Part shown: in pieces, positions 13,504 through 22,410 of the stretch
Layout of the letters: the number at the start of each line of letters is the position of its first letter
Numbering within the stretch: position 1 is the stretch's first letter
Source of the DNA: Dyadobacter fanqingshengii
GTDB lineage: Bacteria; Bacteroidota; Bacteroidia; Cytophagales; Spirosomataceae
DNA: 64,000 bases
Direction: 5' to 3'
Assembly (NCBI RefSeq): GCF_023822005.2
Contig: NZ_CP098806.1
Span: 1,736,001-1,800,000 of the forward strand
Program-made: the position numbers and the translations under genes
The notes under the pieces: model-generated
Database searches by the model: none
What the model saw: only the letters and a program-made list of their open reading frames with translations
Told to the model about the DNA's origin: nothing

Positions 13504-13911
<408 letters not shown>

Positions 13912-15007: not shown

Positions 15008-15811
15008 TTATTTTTCAGAAAAAGCCCATTTAATAAAACCCGGAAGGGCCTCTGACCAAGTGTTCAGATTGTGTTCGCCTAAGGCGATCTCTTTATAAAA
15101 CACTTCGCGGTTCCAGGCATAACCCTTCTTTTCCAGGATCGCAATGCATTCCAGCGTGTCCTGGATCGAATCAATCACGCCGTCCCCATCGCGGTCATCG
15201 TATTCATCCAGCGAACCGCATTGGAACCAGAATTTGAGATTCTGTTTTACCTCCCCATGGCGCAGCTGCGTGTGCATAATGCGATCAGAATCGTCGTAAC
15301 CATCGTGCAGCGCACGTTTTCTCCACCATAACGCACCCGAAAAAACGCCTGTTTTTGAGAAAATACCAGGATTATTCCAGACAATATCCAAAGCCATTAA
15401 CCCACCCAGCGAAAAACCCGCATAAACAATGTGCTCCTGCGAAACATGGTATTCATCATTTATAAACGGCAGCAATTCCTTGGTTACAAAATCGGAGGTG
15501 GCCCCTGCCCTATTTCCCCGGCCCGCATAATCTGCCTCAGCAGCCACACCATATTCATAGATACGATCATAATTGGCATGAATGCCTACAACCAGCACAG
15601 GATCAATTTCGCCATCGGATTGTAGCTGCGAAATAATTTGTGACATCCCTAAACCCTCAAAATCCTGGCCATCATTAAACAAAACCAACGGATAGGCACG
15701 TGCAGGATCGAAGTTAATTGGCTGTATAACAGATAATGTAACCTCCCTTTCGAGGAAGACGGAAAACACCTTGCGGGCGATTGGAAAAACGGGTTTGTCG
15801 GAGAAACTCAA
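15008..15811 (-). CDS. Esterase-family alpha/beta hydrolase with an EF-hand-like loop
   Basis: This 267-residue protein belongs to the esterase D/Fes-like alpha/beta hydrolases. The nucleophile elbow is GFSLGG with S134. The oxyanion/early strand region is LVLFNDGQDFEG, and the GEHNLNTW motif near 245-252 supplies the likely catalytic His. The acid residue probably lies near 200-206. The segment DRDGDGVID at 206-214 matches a calcium-binding EF-hand/dockerin-type loop, which is unusual inside this fold. There is no signal peptide, so it is cytoplasmic. It is divergent from a second esterase that heads the ATP-grasp cluster, and in that context may cleave or release an ester or peptide-like product. 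The substrate is unknown. Confidence 0.85.
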   Translation of the reverse strand: MSFSDKPVFPIARKVFSVFLEREVTLSVIQPINFDPARAYPLVLFNDGQDFEGLGMSQIISQLQSDGEIDPVLVVGIHANYDRIYEYGVAAEADYAGRGNRAGATSDFVTKELLPFINDEYHVSQEHIVYAGFSLGGLMALDIVWNNPGIFSKTGVFSGALWWRKRALHDGYDDSDRIMHTQLRHGEVKQNLKFWFQCGSLDEYDDRDGDGVIDSIQDTLECIAILEKKGYAWNREVFYKEIALGEHNLNTWSEALPGFIKWAFSEK

Positions 15812-15933: not shown

Positions 15934-16641
15934 TTGGAAGAGAAGCATATCAAATATTACTCGCATCATCTGGAAAGAGATGTGGACATACTGGTTTACG
16001 GTAACTGGGGCTATCCACTGCTGCTTTTCCCCACGACTTTGGGAAAATATTATCAGGCAAAAGACATGGGCCTGATAGAATCTGTGCGCGGACTCGTGGA
16101 ATCCGGAAAATACAAGATCTATTGCGTTGATTCCATCGACGCGGATTCCTGGTATGCCAAGCATTTGAACCCGCAGTACAGGGTGCTGAACCACATTCAG
16201 TATGACAAATTTCTGAACAACGAACTGGCGCCCTACATCAGGCATGAATGTAATGTGGATAGAATTGGCGTAGCGGGATGCAGCTTTGGCGGTTTCCATG
16301 CTGCAAATTTCGCATTCAAACATCCGGAGCAGGTTGCCTACATGATCAGCATGAGCGGCGCGTTTGATATCCGCAGCTTTACTGACGGCTTTTACGACGA
16401 TACGGTTTATTTTAACAATCCAATTGATTTCATGCCCAACGAGCAAGGCTGGCGCTACGGCCATATAAAGATCGTTTTGGGAACCTCCGATTGGGATATT
16501 TGTCTGGATAGCAATTTAAAGATGTCCAAAATCCTGAATGATCAGGGAATTGAACACTGGCTCGATATTAGAGGCTGGGAAAAACACGATTGGCCGTTGT
16601 GGAACAGAATGTTCCCCGATTACCTGTCGCGAATTATGTAA
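15934..16641 (+). CDS. Second esterase-family alpha/beta hydrolase (amidoligase cluster)
   Basis: This 235-residue alpha/beta hydrolase has a nucleophile elbow GCSFGG (Ser near 114) and a late WEKHDWPLW segment that provides the catalytic His. No ATG is available before residue 45, so the start is TTG at 15934 or possibly ATT at 15919; a stop codon at 15916 closes the frame. It is followed after 21 bases by the ATP-grasp gene, so it is probably the first gene of that operon. Similar stand-alone esterases occur next to ATP-grasp ligases in other bacteria, as far as I recall. It could hydrolyse a thioester or ester intermediate or act as a transferase, but this is not shown. Confidence 0.85.
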   Translation: MEEKHIKYYSHHLERDVDILVYGNWGYPLLLFPTTLGKYYQAKDMGLIESVRGLVESGKYKIYCVDSIDADSWYAKHLNPQYRVLNHIQYDKFLNNELAPYIRHECNVDRIGVAGCSFGGFHAANFAFKHPEQVAYMISMSGAFDIRSFTDGFYDDTVYFNNPIDFMPNEQGWRYGHIKIVLGTSDWDICLDSNLKMSKILNDQGIEHWLDIRGWEKHDWPLWNRMFPDYLSRIM

Positions 16642-16662
16642 ATACAAAACAAAAAACCGGAT

Positions 16663-17880
16663 ATGAAAAAAATTGGAATCTTGTTTGGAATGGAAAACAC
16701 TTTTCCAAACGCATTTATTGAAAGAGTAAATAGCAAAGACAGCGGTTTCATCGCAGAAGCCGTAACGATTGATAAAGTAGTGCAGGCCGATCCAACCGAG
16801 TATGCGGTGATCATTGATCGTATTTCCCAGGATGTGCCTTTTTATCGTGCATATTTGAAAAACGCCGCGTTATCTGGCACGGCGGTCATTAATAACCCTT
16901 TTTGGTGGAGTGCCGATGAGAAATTCTTTAATAATGCATTGGCTGAAAAAATAGGCGTTCCTGTGCCGAAAACGGTGCTGCTCCCTTCGAAAGAGCGTCC
17001 TGAAAATACTTCCGAGACTTCATTCCGTAACCTGGCATTCCCGATGGCGTGGGAAGAAATATTCCAATACATTGGTTTCCCGGCTTACATGAAACCGCAC
17101 GATGGCGGCGGCTGGAAAAGCGTTTACAAGGTGGTGAACCCGCATGATATGTGGCATAAGCACGAGGAAACGGGCCAATTGGTGATGATGCTGCAAGAAG
17201 AAATTGAGTTTACAGATTATTTCCGTTGTTACTGCATTGGCCAGAAGGAAGTGCTGATTATGCCTTACGAGCCGAGAAATCCACACCATTTGCGGTATGC
17301 GGCAGAGATGAAGGCAACAGGCGAAGAAGGCGAAAAGCTTTTGGAAACAATAAAAGATTATACGCTGAAACTGAACATTGCATTAGGGTATGATTTCAAC
17401 ACCGTAGAATTTGCAGTGAGGGACGGCATTCCTATCGCCATTGACTTTTGCAATCCGGCACCGGACGCGGACATTTATTCCGTTGGTCGCGACAATTTTG
17501 AATGGGTTGTGGAAGCAGCGGCTAATATGGCCATCGAAAGGGCAAAAACCCAAGTTCCCGGACAGACAAACCTGACATGGGGAACATTTGTGAAAGATTC
17601 ACTTGGAATGTCTGCGCCAACAGCGCCAGCGCCGGTTTCTGCTCCTGCTGAAGTGGAATCTGCAAAAGCACCAGAACCTGTCGCTGCAACCGCGCCGGAA
17701 AAAGCTCCGGCCTCAGCAAAAGAAGTTAAAGTAAAAACCGTTGCGCCGAAAAAAGCGCCGAAACTGGTTGAGGATAAGGGCATATTACCGGTTCCCAGCG
17801 AACCAGCACCAAAAATTCCAACTAAAAAAGCGGCGGCGACAAAAGCGCCCGCAGCAAATTCCAAATTGAAAAAATCTTAA
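16663..17880 (+). CDS. ATP-grasp ligase with Ala/Pro/Lys-rich C-terminal tail
   Basis: This 405-residue protein has an ATP-grasp core in residues 1-315 and a disordered tail in about 317-405. Core features are a Rossmann-like N-terminus (KKIGILFGMENTFP), YMKPHDGGGWKSV at 142-154 as the ATP-binding Lys plus glycine-rich loop, MLQEEIEF at 176-183 for the hinge, and EFAVRDGIPIAIDFCNPAP at 249-267, which carries the metal-binding Glu/Asp/Asn triad. ATP-grasp enzymes activate a carboxylate as acyl phosphate and join it to an amine, thiol or hydroxyl. The tail is made mostly of A, P, K, V and E with repeated AP and KAP units, and it resembles linker or histone-H1-like sequence. Next to it lie an esterase and a COG2170 ligase, which suggests a multi-step ligation pathway. 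The substrate is unknown. Confidence 0.88.
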   Translation: MKKIGILFGMENTFPNAFIERVNSKDSGFIAEAVTIDKVVQADPTEYAVIIDRISQDVPFYRAYLKNAALSGTAVINNPFWWSADEKFFNNALAEKIGVPVPKTVLLPSKERPENTSETSFRNLAFPMAWEEIFQYIGFPAYMKPHDGGGWKSVYKVVNPHDMWHKHEETGQLVMMLQEEIEFTDYFRCYCIGQKEVLIMPYEPRNPHHLRYAAEMKATGEEGEKLLETIKDYTLKLNIALGYDFNTVEFAVRDGIPIAIDFCNPAPDADIYSVGRDNFEWVVEAAANMAIERAKTQVPGQTNLTWGTFVKDSLGMSAPTAPAPVSAPAEVESAKAPEPVAATAPEKAPASAKEVKVKTVAPKKAPKLVEDKGILPVPSEPAPKIPTKKAAATKAPAANSKLKKS

Positions 17881-17902
17881 TCCAACTCCATACGCACGCT
17901 TT

Positions 17903-19003
17903 ATGGCCTCTTTCACTCTGGGAATTGAAGAAGAATTTCAGACCATTGATCCTGTAACGAGGAATCTAAGGTCACATATGTCGAAGCTTGTAGAGGATGG
18001 GAAAATAACGCTCAAAGAGCGTGTAAAGGCCGAAATGCACCAGGCTGTTGTGGAAGTGGGAACCAACATTTGTCACAACATTCAGGAAGCGCGCGAGGAA
18101 GTTACTTATCTGCGCAAAATGATCCTGGATCTGGCCGAGAAGCAAAATTTGCAGGTCGCAGCAGCCGGAACGCATCCCTTTTCCGATTGGGTTGAACAGC
18201 TGATCACGCCTGATCCGCGCTATGACGAGATTATCGACGAAATGCGAGACGTGGCACGCGGCAACCTGATTTTTGGGCTGCACGTGCACGTAGGCATTGA
18301 AAACCGCGATGAAGCCATTCAGATTATGAATGCAGTTCGTTATTTTTTGCCGCACATTTATGCATTGTCGACCAATTCGCCTTTCTGGTGCGGCCGCAAT
18401 ACGGGTTTCAAATCCTACCGGTCAAAGGTTTTTGATAAATTCCCGAGAACAGGCATTCCGGATTCTTTTTCGAGCGCGGCGGAATATGACGAATATGTCA
18501 ATCTCCTGATCAAGACGAAATGCATCGATAATGCCAAGAAAATCTGGTGGGACATCCGGGTTCATCCTTTTTTTGACACCATCGAATTTCGCATGTGTGA
18601 TGTGCCTATGCGCACGGATGAGACGATTTGTCTGGCCGCCATTATGCAGGCGCTGGTCGCCAAAATTCATAAGTTGCACCGCATGAACCTGACATTCAGG
18701 CCTTACCACCGCATGTTGATCAACGAAAACAAATGGAGAGCTGCGCGTTACGGGATTCATGGAAAGCTCATTGATTTTGGTAAGCAGGAAGAAGTTGAGT
18801 ACAAACATTTGGTTGGCGAGTTACTGGAATTTATTGAAGATGTCATCGACGAACTGGGAAGCAGGACAGAGATCGATTACATTCATCAGATTATGGCGAT
18901 GGGAACTGGTGCAGACAGGCAACTGGCTGTTTTTGAACAAACTGGAAGCATGAATGCGGTGGTGGACTACATTGTTTCGGAAACGAAAATTGGCCTGGTG
19001 TAA
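17903..19003 (+). CDS. Carboxylate-amine ligase, GCS2 family (COG2170, YbdK-like)
   Basis: This 366-residue protein is a glutamate-cysteine ligase family 2 member with a glutamine-synthetase-type fold. Visible motifs are GIEEEF at 7-12, AAGTHPFSDW at 87-96 and HVHVGI at 127-132, all typical of the family, plus a conserved C-terminal DYI segment. YbdK of E. coli shows weak glutamate-cysteine ligase activity, but most members are uncharacterised amide-forming enzymes. It begins 22 bases after the ATP-grasp gene, in the same operon. A 109-base gap follows before the amidotransferase gene. True gamma-glutamylcysteine synthesis is possible, but no glutathione synthetase is evident, so a dedicated peptide-like metabolite is more likely. 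Confidence 0.93.
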   Translation: MASFTLGIEEEFQTIDPVTRNLRSHMSKLVEDGKITLKERVKAEMHQAVVEVGTNICHNIQEAREEVTYLRKMILDLAEKQNLQVAAAGTHPFSDWVEQLITPDPRYDEIIDEMRDVARGNLIFGLHVHVGIENRDEAIQIMNAVRYFLPHIYALSTNSPFWCGRNTGFKSYRSKVFDKFPRTGIPDSFSSAAEYDEYVNLLIKTKCIDNAKKIWWDIRVHPFFDTIEFRMCDVPMRTDETICLAAIMQALVAKIHKLHRMNLTFRPYHRMLINENKWRAARYGIHGKLIDFGKQEEVEYKHLVGELLEFIEDVIDELGSRTEIDYIHQIMAMGTGADRQLAVFEQTGSMNAVVDYIVSETKIGLV

Positions 19004-19112
19004 TAGGTTAATTTCAAAAAATGCGAACTAATAGTCCCTTAGGTTGTTAGAATGTTTAGCTGATTATTAATACATTATAACGTTTGCCTGCGCACGCGGC
19101 AACCCCTCTAAA

Positions 19113-19955
19113 ATGAATGATGATAAAAAACATTTCCGGATTGCCATTCTGGACATGTATAACGGGTTTGAGAATGAAGGAATGCGGTGTATCAAAAAGA
19201 TCATTACTGCATTCGGTGAGAATGAGTCTGTGCCCGTTGAATACACAATTTTTGATGTAAGACAAAAGCTGGAAATTCCGGGAATGCATTTCGACGCCTA
19301 TATTTCTACCGGCGGTCCCGGGAATCCTTCGCCGGTTGGTGAGCCTTGGGAAAAGCGGTTTTTTAATTTTTTAGACCAAATATTTCAATTCAATGCAAAC
19401 CGGCATAACAAGACAAAAAAGCATCTTTTCCTGATATGCCATTCCTTTCAGATGGCCTGCATTCACTGGCAGCTGGCAGGGGTTAGCAAAAGAAGAAAAA
19501 CCTCTTTTGGAACATTTCCAGTGCATAAAACAGCGCTGGGCAGAAAAGATTCTTTACTGAGTGCATTAAGCGATCCTTTCTGGATCGTGGACTCCCGCGA
19601 TTTTCAGGTGACCCAACCTAACAAATTTAGGTTGGAAGATATGGGCGCGAAATTGCTTTGTCTGGAAAAGGTAAGGCCGCACGTTCCCCTTGACCGGGCA
19701 GTGATGGCCATTCGTTTTTCAAAAGAAATCGTCGGCACACAGTTTCATCCCGAGGCGGACGCGGAAGGTATGCTTCGTTACTTTTTGCGCGAAGACAAAA
19801 TGACCAGCATTATTGCGATGCATGGTGAGGCTAGATACAATGATATGATCTCGCATTTGAATGATCCGGACAAAATTATGATGACCGAAGCGGTTGTGAT
19901 CCCGGCGTTTTTGAAAAATGCATTGAACGAATCTTTCCTGCCTGCCTATGCATAA
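19113..19955 (+). CDS. Class I glutamine amidotransferase (stand-alone)
   Basis: This 280-residue protein has the class I glutamine amidotransferase triad: C109 in LICHSFQMA, H212 and E214 in TQFHPEAD. The oxyanion/early loop STGGPGNPSP is at 65-74. Class I domains hydrolyse glutamine and pass ammonia to a synthase partner. The elbow CHSFQ differs from the common CxGxQ form in having Ser in place of Gly. About 55 residues after the HPE motif form an extra C-terminal helical region not seen in minimal domains. The gene overlaps the next one by 8 bases, indicating translational coupling, so the protein downstream is the best candidate ammonia acceptor. The product is unknown. Confidence 0.9.
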   Translation: MNDDKKHFRIAILDMYNGFENEGMRCIKKIITAFGENESVPVEYTIFDVRQKLEIPGMHFDAYISTGGPGNPSPVGEPWEKRFFNFLDQIFQFNANRHNKTKKHLFLICHSFQMACIHWQLAGVSKRRKTSFGTFPVHKTALGRKDSLLSALSDPFWIVDSRDFQVTQPNKFRLEDMGAKLLCLEKVRPHVPLDRAVMAIRFSKEIVGTQFHPEADAEGMLRYFLREDKMTSIIAMHGEARYNDMISHLNDPDKIMMTEAVVIPAFLKNALNESFLPAYA

Positions 19956-21141
19956 GGAAGCCCGCGAAGCATTCAACCGCTCATTTACAGAAAGCAAATA
20001 CAAAGCGCTGGCCAATTCCTTCGAAACGGACTTTCCGGGCCAGCTGGATTTTCGCATAGCGGAAACGCCAATTTTTGTCCCGAAGGAATTGTTAGAGAAA
20101 ATTAACATTGCCTCGGAACAGATTATTGATACGTTGCGGTCGCCAGAATTTATATTCAATACAGAAAGGGCTGTTCCGGCGGATCAAAATGTGCCCAATG
20201 AAAACACGCACACGTCATTTCTGGCGATTGATTTCGCCATTTGCAAAGACGAGAAAGGAGAACTCACTCCGCAACTCATTGAATTGCAAGGCTTTCCTTC
20301 CGTGTTTGGTTATCAGGCATATCTATCTGAGGCCTTCAAAAAACACTTCGAAATCCCTGACAACTTCCGTTACAGCTTCGGCGCAGATTCCTATGAAGAA
20401 TATGTAGCCAAGTTGAAAGAATTAATCCTCGCGGGCGAAGATCCTGAGCAAGTAATTTTATTGGAAATTTTCCCTGAAAAACAGAAAACGAGAATAGATT
20501 TTGCGGTTACGGAATCAATGCTCGGTATCCAGCCGGTTTGTTACACCAAGTTAATCAAGGAAGGCAGAGACCTTTTCTACGAAAAAGATGGCAGGAAGAT
20601 CCAGATCAAAAGAATCTATAACCGCCTGATATTCGATGATTTACTTAATTATCCAGACTTAAAAACAAGCTATCATTTCACAGACGACGTGAATGTCAGC
20701 TGGGTTGGTCATCCCAACTGGTTTTTCAGGATTAGTAAATTTTCCATTCCATTTCTGAAAAGCGATTACATTCCGGAAACAAAGTTTGTAAGTCACTATG
20801 AGGGCAATTTTCCAGCAGATCTGGAAAATTATGTTTTGAAACCACTCTTTTCATTCGCCGGTTCTGGTGTTCAACTTCACGTTTCAGAATCAGACTTAGT
20901 GGCCATACCAGATCCGGAAAATTACATTTTACAGCGAAAAGTGGTTTATGAACCAGTGATTCAGGCACCGGACGGTTTAGTTAAATGTGAAATCCGAATG
21001 ATGTATGGCTGGAATGATAACGCAGACAAACCGGAACTGCTTATTTCATTGAGCCGGCTCAGTCGTGGGGAAATGATCGGCGTTCGCTTCAACAAGGATT
21101 TTACATGGGTTGGAGGCAGCGCGGCTTTTTTTGAAAAGTAA
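19948..21141 (+). CDS. Circularly permuted ATP-grasp-like protein
   Basis: I recognise no named enzyme for this 397-residue protein. Its motifs fit an ATP-grasp fold of the permuted, glutathionylspermidine-synthase-like sort: LIELQGFPS at 110-118 (acidic metal ligand after a strand), YVLKPLFSFAGSGVQ at 295-309 (Lys plus glycine-rich ATP loop), YILQRKVVYEP at 326-336, and VKCEIRMMYG at 345-354. The order of motifs, with the acidic LIELQG block before the Lys-rich loop, suggests permutation. It overlaps the amidotransferase gene by 8 bases and its stop lies just before a palindromic promoter. It probably ligates an amine or ammonia to a carboxylate in the same pathway as the upstream genes. Confidence 0.72.
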   Translation: MHKEAREAFNRSFTESKYKALANSFETDFPGQLDFRIAETPIFVPKELLEKINIASEQIIDTLRSPEFIFNTERAVPADQNVPNENTHTSFLAIDFAICKDEKGELTPQLIELQGFPSVFGYQAYLSEAFKKHFEIPDNFRYSFGADSYEEYVAKLKELILAGEDPEQVILLEIFPEKQKTRIDFAVTESMLGIQPVCYTKLIKEGRDLFYEKDGRKIQIKRIYNRLIFDDLLNYPDLKTSYHFTDDVNVSWVGHPNWFFRISKFSIPFLKSDYIPETKFVSHYEGNFPADLENYVLKPLFSFAGSGVQLHVSESDLVAIPDPENYILQRKVVYEPVIQAPDGLVKCEIRMMYGWNDNADKPELLISLSRLSRGEMIGVRFNKDFTWVGGSAAFFEK

Positions 21142-21170
21142 ATTATGTTTTATAAAAATTATAAATAAAA

Positions 21171-21185
21171 TACTTTTGAAAAGTA
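21171..21185 (+). promoter_or_regulatory. -7 element inside a perfect 15-bp palindrome
   Basis: TACTTTTGAAAAGTA is a perfect inverted repeat (7-bp arms, central G) and its left part TACTTTTG (21171-21178) is a perfect TAnnTTTG. It lies 13 bases upstream of the aminotransferase ATG. A repressor or activator could bind here, but no candidate is identified. Confidence 0.5.
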
Positions 21186-21198
21186 TTTAACATTTAGA

Positions 21199-22410
21199 AT
21201 GCATATATCCCACCGCCAACATTTTTTTGATCATTTAGCCCAAACCTCAGACTATCCACTTGCCTTAGAAATTGAAAAAGCGGAGGGCGTGTACATGTAC
21301 AGCCCGGATGGAAAGCGCTATATGGACCTCATTTCCGGGATTGCGGTCAGCAATGTAGGGCATCGGCACCCAAAAGTCCTCGCCGCAGTGCATGAACAAC
21401 TTGAAAAGCACATGCACTTGCTCGTATATGGTGAATTCGTGCAAAGTACGCAGGTGCAGCTTGCCAGGGCGCTCACAGAAACGCTACGTTTGGAAAGTGC
21501 AAATCCTTCCCCCTACGGCCTGATTGACAATGTTTATTTTACCAATTCTGGAACGGAAGCGGTCGAAGGTGCGATGAAACTGGCGAAGCGTTTCACCGGT
21601 CGTGATGAATTTGTTTCCTGCTTTAATGCGTACCACGGAGCTACCCAAGGCGCGCTGAGCCTTGCTGGAGCAGAATTTTTCAAACGAAATTTTCGTCCGT
21701 TACTTCCCGGCATAACCAATATCAAACATGGCTTTTTGCCCGATATTGAAAAAATAACGGATAAAACGGCCGCAGTGATCATTGAAATCATTGGTGGTGA
21801 ATCCGGGGTACGTGTGCCGGATGACGTGTATTTTCCTGCCTTGCGAGAAAAATGCAATGAAACGGGAGCCCTGTTGATTTTCGATGAAATTCAGACAGGA
21901 TATGGCCGTACGGGTTCGTTTTGGGCTTTTGAGCAGTTTGGCGCTTACCCGGACATTGTACTGAGCGCCAAAGCAATGGGTGGCGGCATGCCAATTGGTG
22001 CTTTCATGGCATCTCAACAAATTATGGGTGCCTTCAAAAACAATCCGATCCTGGGACACATTACCACATTTGGCGGGCACCCTGTGAGTTGTGCGTCTTC
22101 GCTAGCCGCATTGCAGGTTACATTAGAAGAAAATTTAGCGGCCTCGGCCAATGCAAAGGGCGACCTTTTTAAATCGTTATTAATTCATCCGGCGATTAAG
22201 GAAGTGAGAGGAAGAGGACTAATGCTGGCTGCGGAGATGGAATCTTTTGCGAAGTTGAAAAACACCATTGACCGCTGCATTGAACGGGGCGTTGTTACCG
22301 ACTGGTTTTTGTTCTGCGACAATGCCATGCGCATTGCACCGCCGCTTACCATCACGGAAGATCAGATCCGGGAGGCTTGTACTGTTATTTTGTCAGTTTT
22401 GAACGAATAG
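21199..22410 (+). CDS. Class III PLP-dependent aminotransferase
   Basis: This 403-residue protein belongs to the acetylornithine/ornithine/4-aminobutyrate aminotransferase group. Visible motifs are NSGTEAVEGAMKLAK (117-131), AYHG (144-147, aromatic stacking on PLP), FDEIQTGYGRTG (228-239, with D229 contacting the pyridine N) and LSAKAMGGGMPIGA (255-268, with Schiff-base Lys K258). It could be a biosynthetic ArgD-like enzyme or act on another omega-amine. It has its own -7 element and palindrome after the amidoligase cluster, and ends 6 bases before the epimerase-like gene. Whether it belongs functionally to the amidoligase pathway is open; it could supply an amino or keto substrate. Confidence 0.93.
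   Translation: MHISHRQHFFDHLAQTSDYPLALEIEKAEGVYMYSPDGKRYMDLISGIAVSNVGHRHPKVLAAVHEQLEKHMHLLVYGEFVQSTQVQLARALTETLRLESANPSPYGLIDNVYFTNSGTEAVEGAMKLAKRFTGRDEFVSCFNAYHGATQGALSLAGAEFFKRNFRPLLPGITNIKHGFLPDIEKITDKTAAVIIEIIGGESGVRVPDDVYFPALREKCNETGALLIFDEIQTGYGRTGSFWAFEQFGAYPDIVLSAKAMGGGMPIGAFMASQQIMGAFKNNPILGHITTFGGHPVSCASSLAALQVTLEENLAASANAKGDLFKSLLIHPAIKEVRGRGLMLAAEMESFAKLKNTIDRCIERGVVTDWFLFCDNAMRIAPPLTITEDQIREACTVILSVLNE

Follow-up and report, generated by a model that had tools for sequence, protein, structure and literature searches.

In the synthesis of glutathionylspermidine and trypanothione, amide bonds are formed by three successive ligases, and YgiC and YjfC of Escherichia coli are peptide-spermidine ligases. 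A peptide ligase and a glutamine-dependent amidation give the dipeptide amide NAGGN (N-acetylglutaminylglutamine amide), an osmolyte whose enzymes are an acetyltransferase/ATP-grasp fusion and an asparagine-synthetase-type amidotransferase, and in carbamoyl phosphate synthetase a class I glutaminase subunit feeds ammonia to an ATP-grasp ligase. The amidoligase-cluster survey of Iyer et al. (2009) reportedly includes ligases and hydrolases encoded in one neighbourhood. Here we analysed a five-gene block of Dyadobacter fanqingshengii (assembly GCF_023822005.2), located at 15934-21141 of a stretch of 64,000 nucleotides (contig NZ_CP098806.1, positions 1,736,001 to 1,800,000; hereafter the window). 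It encodes an esterase (A), three ligases (B, C and E) and a class I glutamine-amidotransferase-like protein (D), and a second esterase gene (H) is divergent from it. The analyses revealed that the block is conserved and inherited as a unit and that it combines three different types of amide-forming ligase.

The block resembles the glutathionylspermidine and trypanothione pathways in the set of three amide ligases, in the fold of E, which is that of GspS, YgiC and trypanothione synthetase, and in the membership of C in the glutamate-cysteine ligase family; it differs from them in the RimK/LysX-like type of B, the additional glutaminase-like D, the two esterases and bacillithiol as the expected thiol. 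YgiC and YjfC are distant, with 12-14% identity, and we know of no case in which they occur in such a five-gene block. Cp1B, the E-64 ligase, differs in being fungal, in using an acid without an alpha-amino group and in leaving the second step to an unrelated ligase. The pairing of glutaminase-type D with ATP-grasp E recalls carbamoyl phosphate synthetase, although E comes from a different ATP-grasp family. A family scan (Pfam, NCBIfam) of the nine proteins encoded between 13981 and 23295 revealed neither of the NAGGN enzyme types among them. Ligases and hydrolases are also brought together in the Anbu, alpha-E, transglutaminase and ATP-grasp operon, as outlined in PMC5666114, and the D. fanqingshengii genome likewise has an A-type esterase beside an ATP-grasp protein of PF14403, whereas Anbu, alpha-E and transglutaminase were absent from the same nine neighbours, the rest of the genome not having been searched. 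A literature search, whose listings were partial and did not cover Iyer et al. (2009), gave no account of this gene set and no named pathway explaining it, as the preliminary description, made from the sequence, had also supposed. Since this likeliest survey was not covered, the block is classed with the known amidoligase clusters and not as categorically new.

Conservation and co-inheritance of the block

Scanning of contigs with an alignment of E gave at least 596 stretches, 588 of them encoding a relative, and the best-scoring 80 were taken as loci, 63 of which extend more than 8 kb before and more than 3 kb after E; the counts below are limited by this choice of relatives and by the shorter stretches. 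The gene order was found to recur in other Bacteroidota: H-A-B-C-D-E was present in 40 of the 80 loci, and the remainder had A-B-C-D-E (2), H-B-C-D-E (1), B-C-D-E (2), B-C-E (1), C-D-E (7), D-E (16), E alone (10) or B and C on the other strand (1). The named hosts included Dyadobacter, Runella, Larkinella, Spirosoma, Hymenobacter, Pedobacter, Chitinophaga, Cyclobacteriaceae, Saprospiraceae and one Ignavibacteria metagenome-assembled genome. In 69 loci D lay upstream of E at a distance of 1 kb or less, and in seven the two genes overlapped by 4 bases. H was present in 44 loci, and 43 of these had it in the orientation opposite to that of E. E-like proteins were also named from Blastocatellia, Acidobacteria and Thermoanaerobaculia (P0249, P0273 and P0335, among 120 matches listed), and this similarity suggests that E is not restricted to Bacteroidota.

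When 198 Bacteroidota genomes were searched, E, C, B and D were detected in 60, 62, 72 and 50 genomes, respectively; the weak matches to E in G013 and G181 were excluded from the co-occurrence counts, and the E of G066, split over two contigs, was scored as linked to C via its short fragment. The combinations were BCDE in 34 genomes, BCE in 20, BD in 7, BDE and BCD in 4 each, B in 3, C in 2, CE and CDE in 1 each, and none of the four genes in 122. C and E were thus both present in 56 genomes and both absent from 132, with C but not E in 6 and E but not C in 4, and the corresponding figures for B and E were 58 and 124, with B but not E in 14 and E but not B in 2. The Fisher p-values (1e-15 to 6e-39) treat related genomes as independent and are usable for direction alone. 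Of the 56 genomes holding both C and E, 34 had the starts of the two genes no more than 4 kb apart, which speaks against the possibility, raised in the preliminary description, that genes of this set are usually unlinked. In the single-contig genomes G033, G043 and G059, B, C and E were all kept though E lies far from the other two, and it is this retention of unlinked genes that argues most strongly for a shared function. The esterases A and H are frequent companions of B. Matches to the A family, counted at 90 bits or more (which retained 81 of 102 genomes and includes paralogues elsewhere in the genome), were present in 70 of the 72 genomes with B and in 58 of the 60 with E.

D was accompanied by B in 49 of the 50 genomes that carry it. 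When the presence of D was mapped on the E tree (45 proteins), it required 3 changes, compared to a mean of 11.5 after shuffling, and D has therefore been inherited together with E; the signal is one of joint inheritance and not of joint action. Genome G190 has the block divided between two contigs, the first carrying A-B-C and the second D-E, and gave no match to H in the stretch examined; this split fits a D-E module. Three loci examined in genomes lacking E had the arrangement A-B-X-D (L157:23-6049 and L158:4845-9851) or B-X-D (L153:5659-10034), with a distant H-like esterase after it, where X is a permuted ATP-grasp protein that takes the place of C and E; its score against PF14403 exceeded the cut-off in L153 and L157 and fell short of it in L158. 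Since D thus goes with B and one of two ligases, either E or X, these data suggest that D serves that ligase.

Enzyme families encoded by the block

Table. Coordinates of the block and of adjoining features in the window.
Feature	Coordinates	Strand	Evidence
H, divergent PF00756 esterase	15008..15811	-	PF00756, 102 bits
A, esterase of small alpha/beta hydrolase type, start codon TTG	15934..16641	+	PF00756, 38 bits
B, RimK/LysX-like ATP-grasp ligase with Ala/Pro/Lys-rich tail	16663..17880	+	modelled fold
C, GCS2/YbdK-family carboxylate-amine ligase	17903..19003	+	NF010039, 561 bits
D, class I glutamine-amidotransferase-like protein, Cys-His-Glu intact	19113..19955	+	PF00117, 26.1 bits
E, glutathionylspermidine-synthetase/YgiC-like ATP-grasp ligase	19948..21141	+	fold match
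Perfect inverted repeat separating E from the aminotransferase gene (arms of 10 bases, loop of 1)	21168..21188		inverted-repeat scan
Class III aminotransferase, accessory neighbour, 57 bases past E	21199..22410	+	PF00202, 333 bits

The five same-strand open reading frames and their spacing (21 bases between A and B, 22 between B and C, 109 between C and D, and an 8-base overlap of D and E) matched the preliminary description exactly, and so did the divergent esterase gene; no intergenic distance in the block exceeds 122 bases. Among the ligases, C scored above three curated cut-offs (NF010039, cut-off 371 bits; TIGR02050, 309 against 176; PF04107, 211 against 21), aligned with E. coli YbdK (1r8g) over residues 3-341 and conserved the Glu/Arg/His set in an alignment of 87 rows. 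By family score, C is a YbdK-type carboxylate-amine ligase (COG2170, GCS2), as it had been described. The alignment rows used here may include the same genome twice, and those of A two paralogues of the source genome.

The earlier assignment of B to the ATP-grasp ligases was borne out by its predicted model, which shows a RimK/LysX-type ATP-grasp fold, with sequence scores below the cut-offs: B had no Pfam match at an E-value of 1 or less, and in NCBIfam it matched only weakly, to RimK (25.1 bits against TIGR00768, rimK_fam; cut-off 143.4), to LysX, to D-Ala-D-Ser ligase and to MptN. Lys144, Asp261 and Asn264 were kept in an alignment of 81 rows. The C-terminal tail (about 17640-17877) is of low complexity, and the open frames of relatives range from about 310 to 575 amino acids, indicating that the tail is not universal.

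E had a single Pfam match, far under the cut-off, and no match to PF03738 (GSP_synth) at an E-value of 1 or less; a fused E relative (L132) reached 13.8 bits against the same family, below its cut-off of 29.3. A Foldseek search with the predicted model of E gave 26 rows at an E-value of 0.001 or less, all of the YgiC/GspS/eukaryotic-type glutathione synthetase fold and including Cp1B; the match also covered the pre-ATP-grasp part, and the closest structural relatives were YgiC, YjfC and GspS. Judged by this modelled fold, E belongs to the ATP-grasp enzymes of glutathione synthetase/glutathionylspermidine synthetase/YgiC type, so that the preliminary description, which had called it a permuted ATP-grasp-like protein, was nearly right. 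YgiC and YjfC are termed peptidylpolyamine synthetases in PMC12568646. The closest named relatives of E are Dyadobacter proteins with 88-89% identity. Searches of solved structures with the single sequences of B, D and E gave no match, and searches with profiles gave one weak match each for E (YgiC, E-value 0.0095) and B (biotin carboxylase, E-value 0.0024) and weak matches for D to a putative protein and a homoserine succinyltransferase.

The description of D as a class I glutamine amidotransferase was upheld by its score against PF00117 (GATase), narrowly over the cut-off of 22.8 bits, and by the conserved Cys-His-Glu: C109, H212, E214, Q113 and the SxGGPG strand were at least 95% conserved in 93 rows. 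The canonical nucleophile motif of class I glutaminases is CxGxQ. The ICHSFQ of D differs from it in that Ser replaces Gly, with the Gln retained.

Both esterases exceeded the PF00756 cut-off of 22 bits, as anticipated. S117 (GxSFG), D188 and H218 of A (58 rows) and S134 and H247 of H (51 rows) were at least 95% conserved, and the TTG start of A agrees with the aligned starts of its relatives. The earlier statement that the block holds three amide- or ester-forming enzyme types held for the three types of amide-forming ligase; the esterases are alpha/beta enzymes of hydrolase type and gave no sign of forming bonds. Near 3.49 Mb of the source genome (L188:7607-9901), a paralogue of the A-type esterase adjoins a circularly permuted ATP-grasp protein (PF14403, 546 bits), which places this esterase family beside an ATP-grasp protein at a second genomic site.

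Proposed pathway and competing explanations

The reading that we prefer, and to which we give an even chance, is that the block encodes a pathway that makes a short non-ribosomal peptide and then caps it. Based on the folds, the conserved active-site residues, the co-inheritance and the synteny, stepwise synthesis by C and B followed by capping by E, with D as the donor of ammonia, is the most economical reading. In the order of steps that we infer, C would activate a carboxylate, probably glutamate-like, to form the first amide bond, and B would append the next residue. E would then activate the free carboxyl of the putative peptide and link an amine to this group. In genomes with D, the presumed coupling of D and E would have glutamine hydrolysed by D and the ammonia passed to E, and a peptide amide would result; in genomes without D, E would use free ammonia or another amine, for which a polyamine is the main candidate in view of the nearest relatives of E. 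As hydrolases, the esterases A and H would trim or release the putative product or an intermediate, or recycle it. The pathway would be sited in the cytosol; no signal peptide was noticed in the block proteins by eye, no prediction having been run.

Two observations weigh against this reading: D was absent from 20 of the 54 genomes holding B, C and E, and four genomes of one family had B, D and E with no GCS2 protein of ordinary length. A GCS2-CBS fusion was considered as a stand-in for C and rejected as not specific, since it reached at least 480 bits in 54 of the 198 genomes, both with and without B and E. These fusions have 640-654 amino acids and consist of a GCS2-like part and CBS domains (L180:277-2241; L179:1366-3288).

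The same C/B peptide could instead be coupled by E to a polyamine, with D acting as a cysteine hydrolase that removes an amine or gamma-glutamyl group, an alternative that we regard as rather unlikely. It draws on the structural closeness of E to YgiC, YjfC and GspS, on the parallel of C, B and E with gamma-glutamylcysteine ligase, glutathione synthetase and GspS, and on an aminotransferase gene no more than 6 kb past E in 23 of the 80 loci, whose best NCBIfam match in the window, below the cut-off, is the acetylornithine type. The aminotransferase is, however, outside the wider conserved core, and D retains the glutaminase-type Cys-His-Glu, SxGGPG and Q113 and adjoins E.

Protein or peptide tagging, in which B would add residues in the manner of RimK, C and E would build or cap the tag and A and H would remove it, is given only a small chance. 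The short gaps leave no carrier or target gene within the block, and the absence of Anbu, alpha-E and transglutaminase among the nine neighbours points the same way. Carrier proteins of LysW type end in E-D/E-WGE, and no such C-terminus is encoded in the window. A ribosomally synthesized and post-translationally modified peptide of graspetide type, or a LysW-type carrier, was rejected on the same lack of space between the genes and of a LysW-like C-terminus. Candidate roles as an anti-phage defence system, with no PADLOC model matching any of six proteins at an E-value of 0.01 or less, and as a plasmid-borne element, with E unmatched in 72,556 plasmid records, were also rejected.

In putrescine breakdown, PuuD hydrolyses a gamma-glutamyl amide, and the class I amidotransferase-like fold of D includes such hydrolases. 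Catabolism of an amine, protected by C as a gamma-glutamyl amide, processed by the aminotransferase and a LuxC-like protein and released by D, would thus account for the class III aminotransferase downstream of the block and the LuxC-like protein encoded upstream; yet these genes occur in only 23 and 14 of the 80 loci, respectively, and B and E, which such a route does not need, form the co-inherited core from which D is often missing, making this explanation very improbable. We find scarcely credible a disguised glutathione pathway, in which C, B and E would give gamma-glutamylcysteine, glutathione and finally glutathione amide or glutathionylspermidine: the order of enzyme types is identical, and some B relatives are annotated as 'glutathione synthase' and one E relative as 'glutathionylspermidine synthase-like', but the genome encodes BshC (391 bits) and the NCBIfam matches of B are limited to the four weak ones given above. 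In PMC6282198, N-methyl-bacillithiol is reported from one Bacteroidetes strain and bacillithiol is predicted in others from gene content, and glutathione amide of Chromatium is described as a natural amidated tripeptide. The C-B-E set follows the scheme of glutathionylspermidine synthesis, with no good reason to take glutathione as the thiol.

Extended to the phylum, synthesis and capping of a non-ribosomal peptide would mean that an undescribed family of such peptides is made by about 27-30% of the Bacteroidota sampled and perhaps by some Acidobacteriota, in which E-like proteins occur. The peptides would be built by GCS2 and RimK-like enzymes and amidated by a GspS-like ligase with ammonia from a dedicated class I glutaminase, a generalization that we offer tentatively. 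If it is true, bacteria that rely on bacillithiol would have in these peptides a core-metabolism equivalent of glutathione amide or glutathionylspermidine, and the reading would provide a new compound as well as substrates for ligase families that have none assigned here. The three unrelated types of amide ligase are kept across the phylum even where their genes have dispersed, which speaks for a metabolite or a modification that these bacteria share, now masked by annotations such as 'glutathione synthase' and 'hypothetical protein'.

Neighbouring genes and further arrangements

The source genome comprises 6.27 Mb in 2 contigs. Beyond E, the + strand continues with the aminotransferase gene and, 6 bases after it, an aldose epimerase gene. 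Four sites in the window combine arms of 9 bases or more with loops of 3 bases or fewer; the inverted repeat listed in the table is one of them and may be an operator or a transcript end. TAnnTTTG is the promoter motif of Bacteroidota; its frequency in the window, 52 sites where 54 were expected, gave no signal.

Two further stretches, L155 and L156, resemble the B-X-D architecture. In one family, E was fused to a sodium:solute symporter (L132:5637-8240) or adjoined one (L134:7790-10369), and the symporter may serve the uptake of a substrate of E. A ferredoxin gene lies close to the cluster in the window (13504-13851), and a related ferredoxin gene was found in L136:5605-8610 and L138:4974-7990, in a row with a gene of 480-489 amino acids and E; in L136 the intervening gene encodes an amidohydrolase (PF07969).
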